35,797 nt of DNA, taken from the NCBI GenBank assembly GCA_905233845.1, contig CAJOFH010000029.1, forward strand, positions 1-35,797, in the 5' to 3' direction. Position 1 is the first letter of the stretch. Each line of letters starts with the position of its first letter. The position numbers and the translations under genes were made by a program. Below the pieces are notes generated by a model. The model ran no database searches and had not been told where the DNA came from. It saw only the letters and a program-made list of their open reading frames with translations. This document shows, in pieces, positions 29,006-33,924 of this stretch. Source of the DNA: an uncultured Muribaculaceae bacterium (GTDB lineage: Bacteria; Bacteroidota; Bacteroidia; Bacteroidales; Muribaculaceae).

Positions 29006-29968
29006 ATGGATTATCAAACGCTAATAGTTCTTGACAGCGAGGAAGAGGCTAACGAAATCATCAGTCTTTTAAAGATGAATAGCATTGATTCCTATGTTGA
29101 AGAGTCTACTCAATATGACAAGCGACCTCTTAAATTTCAGTGGGATGTCATGGTGGATAAAGACAAGGCTGGTCATGCATTGTTATGTCTATCACTATCT
29201 AAGAAATTTAAGACTCACTCAAACGACTCCTCTGCTGATGACACTCAAGATGTCGATGATGTCATTTCTTTTAGTGATATATTGACAAACTCTTCTTCCT
29301 CCTCCTATGATTTTGTCGAAAAATTAGGTGGTAAATCATTGAGAAAAGAGTCGAAAGGCTGCTCTTCATGGAGCGGTTGGGCTGTTATTGGGTTGATTGC
29401 CGTTATTCTATGGGTCGGAAATTTTAATCGTTCAAAATATTATGAATACAAGCAGCAGGCAAGTATCGATTCTATGATGAAAAGCATTGATAGAATGCAC
29501 AAGCTGCAAGATAGGTTAAAGGACCGACATTTAAGGCTTTATACCGATAAGGAAGGAAATATAAAATCCTTTGTGACACAAGACTTGACTTTAGATAGGT
29601 TGAAAGAAACAGTAGAGCGTTATGATAAGTCTAATCCTCAACCTTTTGGTGAGGGTTTTATCGTCAATAAAACAAAACTGAAGGGTAAGGTCATATATTA
29701 TGACATCCAGAGCACTCCAGACGTTTATAATAATGGGAAAAACGAAAAGTCACTAAAAAAGATATTGGCAAAAAATCTAAATGATAATTTGGGATTTGAA
29801 AAGTTTGTCTTTGGAAATAATCTTTATGAAAAAATGGATGAGATGGGAGTGTCTTTTATAATACGACTTTTTGATGATAAAGCCAATTCTGAATTCCAAA
29901 ACATAGCAATATCGCCTGTCTATCTTAAAAGAATCGATGACAAAGAGAAAGCAGGTGTTAAAAAGTGA
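29006..29968 (+). CDS. Membrane protein with DUF2007-like N terminus and a domain shared with the next gene
   Basis: 320 residues, function unknown. Residues 1-65 resemble the DUF2007 fold of putative signal-transducing proteins (TLIVLDSEEEANEIISLLKMNSIDSYVEE...WDVMVDKDKAGHALLCL). A Ser/Asp-rich linker follows, then one transmembrane segment (WSGWAVIGLIAVILWVGNF, about 120-140), a short coiled-coil-like stretch (SIDSMMKSIDRMHKLQDRLKDRH) and a C-terminal domain from residue ~215. That domain (GEGFIVNK...KGKVIYYD...LYEKMDEMGVSFIIRLFDD) aligns with the C terminus of the next protein, indicating paralogy. Topology would put the DUF2007-like part in the cytoplasm and the shared domain outside. The two genes are 18 bp apart. 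The region is AT-rich compared with the flanking housekeeping genes. Confidence 0.7.
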   Translation: MDYQTLIVLDSEEEANEIISLLKMNSIDSYVEESTQYDKRPLKFQWDVMVDKDKAGHALLCLSLSKKFKTHSNDSSADDTQDVDDVISFSDILTNSSSSSYDFVEKLGGKSLRKESKGCSSWSGWAVIGLIAVILWVGNFNRSKYYEYKQQASIDSMMKSIDRMHKLQDRLKDRHLRLYTDKEGNIKSFVTQDLTLDRLKETVERYDKSNPQPFGEGFIVNKTKLKGKVIYYDIQSTPDVYNNGKNEKSLKKILAKNLNDNLGFEKFVFGNNLYEKMDEMGVSFIIRLFDDKANSEFQNIAISPVYLKRIDDKEKAGVKK

Positions 29969-29986
29969 TTTTATAATAAGTGGTTT

Positions 29987-30910
29987 ATGAAATATATAGT
30001 ACGCACACTTTCAATCGTCCTTGTCGCATTGTTGATTGCCGGAAATGTCAATGTCGATGCTAAAACACGACGCACTAAAAAACACCACAAAACACAGACA
30101 AAGACTCAGATTTCGGACAAGGATTTTATAGCTAAACTGTCGGAACAAGAACTGATAGAGCTGTATGCCCTATCTAATGAATATCTTTCGAAGCAATGTC
30201 CCTTCAAATGTGCCGATGGAGTGATGCTCCAGTCGGTGAGCTTCAAGGACAAGTGCGTCAAGATTGTCATGGCTTATACCGAAGACTATATGAGAGAAAA
30301 CGGCAAGTACGTGGTGAACTCCGACTTGAGCAACATGGCTTATAGTATAATGAAAACCTATGCTGTGAATGTTATTTTAGAATTGGGAGTTTCAATAAAA
30401 ACTTTTGCCAAAACAGGTATCTATTATGACTTCACGATAAAAGATGACAAAGGCAATGTGTTGGGGACTAAAAAGGTGACAAACAATGAAATTGTTAGCG
30501 CCTATAACGATCCGTCATTTAGAAATGACGCTTCGGCAGGGAATTATTGTAACTTGGAACTAATTCAGGAGATTATAAAAGCTGCTAATAAGAATACTCC
30601 AGTCGACACGGGCGAGGGTGTTATCACTACTAGAATCACAATGGATGGGACCGTAATTTATTACGATGGATTGGTTGTCGACGAGTTTATTAGTAGTTCG
30701 TTTATTGCTGCTCCAAAGGAGAACCAACGCATTTTGAAAGACATAATGGCAAGGAATCTCTACACTACTTTTTCCCAAAGTGGGTTGTTTGAAGACATGG
30801 TGTCGCTGGGAATCTCGTTTGTTGTCCGTTTCTATAAGCAAGATGAGATTGAGCCTATTCTCACCATAAATCTCTCGGCCGCCGAAATAAAGCAACAAAG
30901 CGAATTGTAA
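29987..30910 (+). CDS. Exported protein with two copies of the shared domain
   Basis: 307 residues, function unknown. The signal peptide is MKYIVRTLSIVLVALLIAGNVNVDA, followed by a basic linker (KTRRTKKHHKTQTKTQ). The last ~99 residues (from GEGVITTRITMDGTVIYYD to the end, including LFEDMVSLGISFVVRFYK) are colinear with the C-terminal domain of the preceding protein. The middle (SVSFKDKCVKIVMAYTEDYM ... LGVSIKTFAKTGIYYDFTIKDDKGN) looks like a more diverged second copy of the same fold. The pair is probably cotranscribed. Both would display this domain on the outer side of the inner membrane, one anchored and one free. thiL follows with its own promoter. Confidence 0.7.
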   Translation: MKYIVRTLSIVLVALLIAGNVNVDAKTRRTKKHHKTQTKTQISDKDFIAKLSEQELIELYALSNEYLSKQCPFKCADGVMLQSVSFKDKCVKIVMAYTEDYMRENGKYVVNSDLSNMAYSIMKTYAVNVILELGVSIKTFAKTGIYYDFTIKDDKGNVLGTKKVTNNEIVSAYNDPSFRNDASAGNYCNLELIQEIIKAANKNTPVDTGEGVITTRITMDGTVIYYDGLVVDEFISSSFIAAPKENQRILKDIMARNLYTTFSQSGLFEDMVSLGISFVVRFYKQDEIEPILTINLSAAEIKQQSEL

Positions 30911-32078: not shown

Positions 32079-32450
32079 CTATATCTTTATCAGCGCTATG
32101 ATGAGGGCGACATAGATTATGAGGGGGACAAACACGCATATTATTACTGAGCTGACGATGTAGTTCCAGCCAATGCGTTTGAACCATAGCAAGAAGTCAA
32201 CCGATTTTTTGAAGGCCCAGTCGCACCAATGTCTGAAATCGTTGTGGTGAAGGATGAAAATAGTAACCCATGCAAGTATCAGTAGAGTAGTGGTGATGGG
32301 TTTCTTGATAAGAAAGTCAATCATCACTGTCCAAGTGAGAGGTACGATGAGATAGTATACAATTATGTTTATCTCATTGTAGGTCCTGCCAGTAGCTTCG
32401 GCAATTTTGTACAAGATATCGGCAACAAATTTAAAACATTTATCAATCAT
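32079..32450 (-). CDS. Small integral membrane protein, unknown
   Basis: 123 residues with three hydrophobic segments: INIIVYYLIVPLTWTVMIDFLI, TTTLLILAWVTIFIL and YIVSSVIICVFVPLIIYVALIIALI. Between them is a charged, aromatic stretch (HHNDFRHWCDWAFKKSVDFLLWFKRIGWN). The N-terminal helix (MIDKCFKFVADILYKIAEATGRTYNEIN) is amphipathic. No recognised family; proteins like this appear as hypotheticals in Bacteroidales. It ends the minus-strand run, 11 bp after the stop of the HU-TM-LysM gene, so it is probably the third gene of that operon and could act with it at the membrane. Confidence 0.65.
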   Translation of the reverse strand: MIDKCFKFVADILYKIAEATGRTYNEINIIVYYLIVPLTWTVMIDFLIKKPITTTLLILAWVTIFILHHNDFRHWCDWAFKKSVDFLLWFKRIGWNYIVSSVIICVFVPLIIYVALIIALIKI

Positions 32451-32461
32451 AATAAAGCGAT

Positions 32462-33601
32462 TTAGTGGTGGCGGAGGTGATGATGTTTTTTGCTGTGTCG
32501 ACCAGTAGTTGCTGTGCTGTCATTGTCATCGGTTTGATCCTCGGTCTCTTGTGACAATAACTTCTTTTTTAGCTCTTTTTTGTCAACTTTCTCCTCTTTT
32601 TTCTTGTCTTCTTTTCCGATTTCTTTCTCGTCGTCATTCTTGCCATCTTTTTTGTCAACTTTCTCGTCAACTTTCTTGTCAACTTTTTCGTCAACGACTT
32701 CCTCGATTATTTCAACTTTAGGTCTTGTTGCCTTTTTGAGTTTTGAAGAGGCCTGCGATGCATTTTTCAAGCTTTGCTTGCTGTCGCTGTTGATACCGTA
32801 TTTTTCGGCAGGTGGAATGATGAGTGCTGTCCCTTTAGGTATTTCGTGATAGTCTGGGAATTGCTGCTGGTTCTCCAGTGCGATATATACCCAGAAGGCA
32901 CGGTCGCCATAGTGCTTTTGCGCCATGTCGTGCAAACTGTTGTCTCTGCGCAGGGTATCTATTACAATCTTAGTGGGCTGAGATGCAATGGTGTCGTTTT
33001 GAGCAAGTTTCTCATTCTCTTGCCCTGAATTCTTGTGAAGGACTAGACCTGTGATGAGGGCTATGGCTGCTATGACAGCGGCAAGGGCAATCCACAAGCG
33101 CTTGCGACTTCTCTCAGGCGGTTGAGTGGTAGCCTCAACAATCTCGGCAACGGGAGCGACAGGCTCTTCGTCCTCAGTCTCGGTTTGTGGCTCGGGTGCT
33201 GGTTGTGGTTCGGAAACTGGTTGTTTCTCGAGATTATGCTGCAAAGAAGCATCATCATTTTGTTCTAGCTTCTCGGTTTTAGGTTGCATGGTTGCGTCAA
33301 TCTCGTCAAGTTGCTCTTGTGAAATCTCATCGCATAGTTCCACAGGTTTAAACTGTGCAAAAGGTGCATTGACAGTCTCGGCAAGATCTATGTCGGGAGT
33401 GAAGACAATGTCTTTTCCTGTGTTGTCCTTTGCAAGCTTAAATGACCCTAATCCTTTTATTTTTACGCTTTGTCCACAGCTTAGTGCTTGCGTGATGTTG
33501 GCAAAGAGTTCTTGAAGGAACAGTTCGCTCATGCGATTTGTAGTGCTGGCTTTCTCTGCAACCAACTCAACCAGTTGTGGAAATGCTATCTTCTCTTTCA
33601 T
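32462..33601 (-). CDS. HU-like DNA-binding domain fused through a transmembrane helix to LysM
   Basis: 379 residues. Residues 1-~90 are an HU/IHF-superfamily domain (FPQLVELVAEKA...VKIKGLGSFKLAKD...TVNAPFAQFKPVEL). A Glu/Pro/Gln-rich linker (~91-163) leads to RSRKR and one transmembrane helix (LWIALAAVIAAIALITGLVL, 169-188). Residues ~212-264 resemble LysM (RRDNSLHDMAQKHYGDRAFWVYIALENQQ...IPKGTALIIPP), a peptidoglycan-binding fold. The tail is highly charged with VDKK/DEKVD repeats and ends His-rich (KKHHHLRHH). By the positive-inside rule the HU part is cytoplasmic and LysM periplasmic, so the chain could join DNA to the cell wall. Bacteroidetes HU-superfamily proteins fused to SPOR are known, so this LysM version would be a relative. 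It overlaps the small HU gene upstream by 4 nt (ATGA). Confidence 0.82.
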   Translation of the reverse strand: MKEKIAFPQLVELVAEKASTTNRMSELFLQELFANITQALSCGQSVKIKGLGSFKLAKDNTGKDIVFTPDIDLAETVNAPFAQFKPVELCDEISQEQLDEIDATMQPKTEKLEQNDDASLQHNLEKQPVSEPQPAPEPQTETEDEEPVAPVAEIVEATTQPPERSRKRLWIALAAVIAAIALITGLVLHKNSGQENEKLAQNDTIASQPTKIVIDTLRRDNSLHDMAQKHYGDRAFWVYIALENQQQFPDYHEIPKGTALIIPPAEKYGINSDSKQSLKNASQASSKLKKATRPKVEIIEEVVDEKVDKKVDEKVDKKDGKNDDEKEIGKEDKKKEEKVDKKELKKKLLSQETEDQTDDNDSTATTGRHSKKHHHLRHH

Positions 33602-33876
33602 GGCTGGTTGAGTTTTTTCTTGAGAATATTGCTGGCGCAGAACTGTACTTCCACCCGTGGAGGAACGAGGGTGCGCTTGCCAGTCTCATTGTCGACCTCG
33701 ACGCTCTCATTGTGCTTCACAGCCTCAAAGGTTCCGAATCGTGGCACACTAATGCTGTCAAGCTCCGAGCAACGTTCAATCACAACGTTGCTCAGAGCCT
33801 CCAGTAGTTTATTGATATCACTCTTGCTGCGCCCGAGTGATTTGGATAGCGTGTCGACTAATTCCTTGTGTTGCAT
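33598..33876 (-). CDS. HU/IHF-family DNA-binding protein
   Basis: A 92-residue single-domain histone-like protein. The N-terminal helices are MQHKELVDTLSKSLGRSKSDINKLLEALSNVVIERC. The beta-arm region follows: ISVPRFGTFEAVKHNESVEVDNETGKRTLVPPRVEVQFCASNILKKKLN. The arm tip has NETGKRTLVPP in place of the usual NP(x)TG...I.IP, consistent with a HU-family arm whose intercalating proline may be shifted. It is the promoter-proximal gene of a run HU, HU-TM-LysM, membrane protein, with a 4-nt overlap to the second gene. That coupling suggests the two HU domains are made together and could heterodimerise, which is inference. Five TCTAGA repeats at 9-bp period lie immediately upstream of the ATG. Confidence 0.88.
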   Translation of the reverse strand: MQHKELVDTLSKSLGRSKSDINKLLEALSNVVIERCSELDSISVPRFGTFEAVKHNESVEVDNETGKRTLVPPRVEVQFCASNILKKKLNQP

Positions 33877-33879
33877 GTT

Positions 33880-33924
33880 TCTAGATTTTCTAGATGTTCT
33901 AGAAAGTCTAGATTTTCTAGAACT
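33880..33924. repeat. Five tandem 9-bp TCTAGAnnn repeats
   Basis: TCTAGA starts at 33880, 33889, 33898, 33907 and 33916, exactly every 9 bp, each followed by three variable bases. It occupies the gap between the glnS stop and the HU ATG. A TAACTGAAAACTGA-type fragment follows at 33921-33934. Confidence 0.9.

Follow-up and report, generated by a model that had tools for sequence, protein, structure and literature searches.

Can an HU-family protein be held in the bacterial envelope so that it connects the nucleoid with the cell wall? The question is raised by two overlapping genes at positions 32462..33876, on the reverse strand, of contig CAJOFH010000029.1 (assembly GCA_905233845.1), a 35,797-nucleotide stretch of DNA from an uncultured Muribaculaceae bacterium the whole of which is called the window here. 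One gene encodes a stand-alone HU-family subunit (HUP), the other an HU protein that also carries a transmembrane helix and a LysM domain (HUL). To our knowledge, the placement and segregation of the chromosome relative to the growing wall have been little studied in Bacteroidota. By calculation we establish the folds of these proteins, their topology bias, their pairing and distinctness as subunits, their occasional natural fusion and their relation to HU-CCDC81 proteins. HUP and HUL are a real, widespread and conserved two-gene system, kept in part of the Bacteroidales, and appear to be a LysM-ended, membrane-anchored HU heterodimer that is new beside the known HU-CCDC81 proteins.

HUP (33598..33876, reverse strand, as for HUL and its parts below) has 92 residues and matches PF00216 with an E-value of 2.4e-16. 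An ATGA stop/start overlap (33598..33601) joins its frame to that of the 379-residue HUL (32462..33601). HUL residues 1-105 (33287..33601) make up an HU domain whose arm, of strands 52-59 and 62-69, is shortened, together with a helix at 95-105; in the predicted structure the HU fold spans residues 1-82. An acidic, mostly disordered linker, predicted to be cytoplasmic, follows at residues 106-166 (33104..33286), with 5 Lys or Arg against 15 Asp or Glu and a predicted local distance difference test score (pLDDT) below 50 over most of its length. The transmembrane helix, residues 167-190 (33032..33103), begins inside an RSRKR run. Residues 212-266 (32804..32968) form the LysM domain, predicted to be periplasmic, with the fold proper at 213-262, and are succeeded by a conserved KYGIxSDSxxS segment with a helix (residues 267-292; 32726..32803). 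The remaining Lys/Asp/Glu repeat tail with its His/Arg-rich end (residues 293-379; 32465..32725) is absent in at least 27 of 30 aligned proteins from other genera or families; it is partly encoded by 12-, 24- and 36-bp tandem repeats at window positions 32574-32695. By fold or by a PF00216 match above the curated cut-off the proteins belong to the HU/IHF superfamily, and the LysM domain has the β-α-α-β fold of PF01476. NCBIfam profiles gave no match above cut-off for either protein. A sequence-only reading of this DNA had described the HU-like N-terminal domain, the RSRKR run with one membrane helix, the LysM-like domain and the four-nucleotide overlap with a stand-alone HU gene; structure prediction and comparison bear out both domains, the helix is predicted where it was placed and the overlap is present.

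To follow the pair beyond the window, we assembled 218 loci, most of them fetched by their similarity to the HU-LysM protein and a few by similarity to its domains. Collapsing identical HUL proteins reduced 198 to 160 distinct ones, leaving aside L028 and three loci whose HUL open reading frame had no detectable LysM domain (L060, L063 and L064). In L028, HUL is split: its HU part and its LysM part occupy two adjacent open reading frames 20 nt apart. In 156 of the 160 cases an HUP gene on the same strand precedes HUL by no more than 200 nt, a count that is conditional on HU-LysM similarity because the loci were fetched by it. The two frames overlap, by any length, in 104 of these 156 pairs, are separated by 0-30 nt in 49, and are spaced otherwise in 3; the two may be translationally coupled. 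Three further HULs form a single chain with HUP, and two of these fusions match named Porphyromonas proteins; the last HUL is cut by the end of its locus. These counts support the proposed coupling to a second HU.

The same 160 proteins bear on membrane topology. Hydropathy exceeds our cut-off of 1.6 in 156 HULs and reaches 1.53-1.58 in the other four. In 130 HULs the HU side of the membrane carries more Lys and Arg than the opposite side, in 17 the two sides are equal and in 13 the HU side has fewer; this bias agrees with the earlier proposal of an inside HU domain and an outside LysM domain. Among the 159 HULs in which it was measured, the linker is acidic and has a median length of 114 residues.

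HUP and HUL are distinct subunits. In a tree of 31 pairs that includes the window pair, the two form separate clades (31/31 each), and the window HUP groups with the 30 other partners. This tree drew on 32 chosen pairs, L099 being dropped as a duplicate; an earlier tree lacked the window pair. In profile comparison, the best match of all is that between HUP and HUL, with a probability of 99.2. We read them as an obligate heterodimer because a model of the fused HUP-HUL chain superposes on single-chain IHF, and they would probably pair in this way in vivo. The pairing of the genes and their occasional fusion bear on dimer formation indirectly. HUP rows were dropped as support for the fused-chain model, MAFFT having placed them on the second HU domain.

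How does the pair relate to known systems? The HU-CCDC81 proteins of Bacteroidota (PF18174-PF18175, some with SPOR, PF05036) contain two HU domains that parallel HUP and HUL domain by domain: profile comparison gives a probability of 95.8 for HUP with HU domain 1 and 95.5 for HUL with domain 2, whereas the crossed pairings score 76.3 and 74.1. Most HU-CCDC81 proteins also have a membrane segment after the HU domains (hydropathy of at least 1.6 in 8 of 12 looked at), and SPOR was matched in one of two proteins scanned. The sequence-only reading rightly drew a comparison with HU-SPOR fusions, to which the kinship is tighter than it had claimed. Unlike HU-CCDC81 proteins, however, HUP and HUL carry their HU domains on two genes in all but the 3 fused cases, LysM takes the place of SPOR, and HUP retains helix 1 and a full-length arm. 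The window proteins do not combine PF18174 and PF18175 above cut-off in one chain (HUL reaches 14.6 of 35 bits for PF18175 and HUP 13.5 of 26 for PF18174), and the window HUL has no SPOR match, the LysM fold occupying that position.

The two systems coexist, because PF18174 is matched in 179 of 198 genomes drawn from the order, including 30 of the 35 with HU-LysM, as well as in the window genome. We had considered the LysM protein as a replacement for the CCDC81 type, which this co-occurrence rules out. The window genome's own HU-CCDC81 protein (G000:C35, L231 1357-2289) has both HU domains and a C-terminal part without a SPOR match. Burroughs and colleagues are said to have predicted, in Cell Cycle in 2017, that bacterial CCDC81-type HU proteins act in chromosome partition. 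With the HU/IHF nucleoid proteins and single-chain IHF, HUP and HUL share the HU fold and the predicted two-subunit arrangement; unlike them, HUL is membrane-anchored, the net charge is acidic and the DNA arm of the window lineage is eroded. For HU-HIG proteins (PF18291; 4fmr from Bacteroides vulgatus), hmmscan scores both window proteins below cut-off, though one six-frame match, taken with its neighbours, reaches 27.1 against a cut-off of 26.2 bits.

HUL has 918 homologues at an E-value of 0.001 or better. Among the best 120 of these, from which homologue details were drawn, a simple hydropathy rule finds a membrane segment in 118; P0055 falls just short and P0099 has none. Of 59 genomes drawn from the family, 58 give a match; reading individual matches, we find both halves in 54, the HU half alone in 4 and neither in 1, and HU-LysM in at least 35, perhaps 36, of the 198 from the order. 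In a draw from the phylum, at least 28 of 35 genomes of f131, a family of another class, have both halves (27 as loci and one among individual matches); among the matches listed, two of the remainder have the HU half only, in a long frame, and five have neither. HU-LysM also stands, among the matches listed, in the window genome and in two genomes of f53, whereas none of these listed matches points to it in other orders of the window's class. A weak HU-LysM match occurs in one f121 genome (G311). Order and phylum figures are minima, as weaker copies may escape. The raw tallies of 196/198 for the order and 295/296 for the phylum are not presence counts, because the HU half is also matched by ordinary HU proteins, and a further raw tally of 36/148 includes linker artefacts. 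The best 80 of 433 named loci include ones from Muribaculaceae, Barnesiella, Coprobacter, Dysgonomonas, metagenome-assembled genomes of Bacteroidaceae and Candidatus Symbiothrix.

We propose that HUP and HUL are a heterodimeric, HU/IHF-type, trans-envelope link between the nucleoid, or a DNA-bound protein, and the wall. For the family we hold this to be slightly less than evenly balanced, and for the window lineage less probable than that. Several observations weigh against it. The window HUL arm is truncated to a short hairpin, and the window HUP arm, which reads NESVEVDNETGKR, is acidic (DNETGKR) and has no tip proline; the DNA-wrapping β-arm with tip proline that marks PF00216 is thus missing from the window pair. 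Net charge is +1 for the window HUP and -7 for the HU domain of HUL, summing to -6, against +8 and +5 for the canonical HUs of the same genome. Medians over the 156 pairs are +4 for HUP and -5 for HUL, and 18 of the 27 HUPs from f131 carry a negative net charge. HU pairing within the fused chain depends on a model with a mean pLDDT of 64, and this model fits doublet-microtubule and gliding-motor chains at least as well as IHF, which means that DNA binding does not have to be the task of the HU pair. At the other end, the LysM domain most resembles, among solved structures, Kbp-based sensors and the baseplates of phages or injection systems. The listings of our literature search showed no experiment on any family member.

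The first alternative is that the HU heterodimer has lost DNA binding and serves as a protein scaffold, docking a cytoplasmic protein of division, the MoxR type or the cytoskeleton and linking that complex to the wall. We consider this possible but rather unlikely: many Bacteroidales HUPs retain an NPxTGKR-like arm and basic positions, and f131 HULs keep NPQTG-like arm tips. A tip proline, often within NPxTGKR and outside the window lineage, occurs in 88 of 156 HUPs by a simple pattern that leaves the NPHY form uncounted; it is absent in all 13 close relatives counted. Across the family, DNA binding by the HU pair would therefore be plausible. In the window lineage it is doubtful, because the HUL arm is cut, the HUP arm is acidic and lacks its proline, and the net charge is -6.

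Gene neighbourhood bears on a second alternative, an envelope sensor in which LysM reads the state of the wall and the HU pair acts, as a one-component regulator, on local DNA or on a neighbouring MoxR-DUF58 (Bat-type) module. A moxR gene lies directly downstream of the pair in 19 of 30 order-draw loci, covering 12 of 16 sampled Bacteroidales families, and in 23 of the best 80 named loci, where the distance is under 500 nt in 22. Of the 30 order-draw loci, 17 have DUF58 next and 10 have rimO in front; these counts are lower bounds because the flanks are only 1,500 bases, and gene identities were checked with Pfam on one MoxR and one DUF58 example. PMC5700661 reports envelope integrity defects in R. 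leguminosarum mutants in MoxR/DUF58 (Bat-type) genes, as well as aerotolerance in B. fragilis, which favours such a role. Yet the HU pair is intact even though moxR follows it in none of the 28 phylum-draw loci (27 from f131 and the window's own), and we regard the sensor as improbable.

The last alternative, in which LysM senses a ligand or an ion as Kbp does, or binds a protein, and gives no peptidoglycan tether, agrees with its superposition on Kbp/YgaU and phage-baseplate type LysMs (1.0-1.9 Å over 55-63 residues) and with Pfam, which finds no LysM (PF01476) in the window HUL and matches only 3 of 30 relatives at an E-value of 0.01 or better (best 1e-4), but we judge it very unlikely. Unlike the Kbp/YgaU and phage-baseplate LysMs, that of HUL has a conserved FWVYIxxEN segment and is fused to an HU domain and a membrane helix. 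It may bind peptidoglycan.

The window setting between glnS and thiL is local. A 123-residue membrane protein encoded 11 bp 3' of HUL (32079..32450, reverse strand; no Pfam or NCBIfam match) had been put forward as a third component. Of 15 distinct loci in which glnS, HUP and HUL stand in this order, only 4 have it, and it probably lies outside the conserved system. The sequence observation is confirmed and its interpretation partly supported: folds, helix, topology bias and HU coupling stand, but a conserved third gene does not. The gap between glnS and HUP (33878-33921) repeats a 9-bp unit resembling TTTCTAGAT about five times, and these copies form a 15-pair inverted repeat, a possible operator or terminator. 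A promoter and terminator scan performed at chance level, and Rfam gave no match. Elsewhere in the window (29006-30910), adjacent proteins of 320 and 307 residues look alike by eye at their C-terminal ends and have no confident family.

How might the proposed nucleoid-wall link work? Soluble HUP and anchored HUL would be made from one message with overlapping frames. The HU heads would lie in the cytoplasm at the end of the acidic, disordered linker, with a single helix crossing the inner membrane and the LysM domain in the periplasm. In the ancestral task, the HU heterodimer would hold DNA or a DNA-bound protein while LysM holds peptidoglycan, giving an elastic link that would exist beside the related HU1-HU2-TM (SPOR) protein which these bacteria also have. 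In the window lineage, where the DNA-contacting parts are reduced, the ligand on the cytoplasmic side may be a protein, or DNA that is bound only weakly. More speculatively, and with doubts that outweigh our confidence, two related trans-envelope HU-heterodimer systems, one with SPOR for bare septal glycan and one with LysM for the general wall, might tie the chromosome to two peptidoglycan zones, like a nucleus-to-surface linker, with HUP as a detachable on/off switch of the LysM link. We found no publication on the HUP/HUL system, in a search of listings that left most subscription journals outside, so an earlier mention is possible. The known HU-CCDC81 proteins gain a LysM-bearing, two-gene parallel, and, with a conserved pair predicted to span from cytoplasm to wall, a link between nucleoid and wall becomes directly testable.
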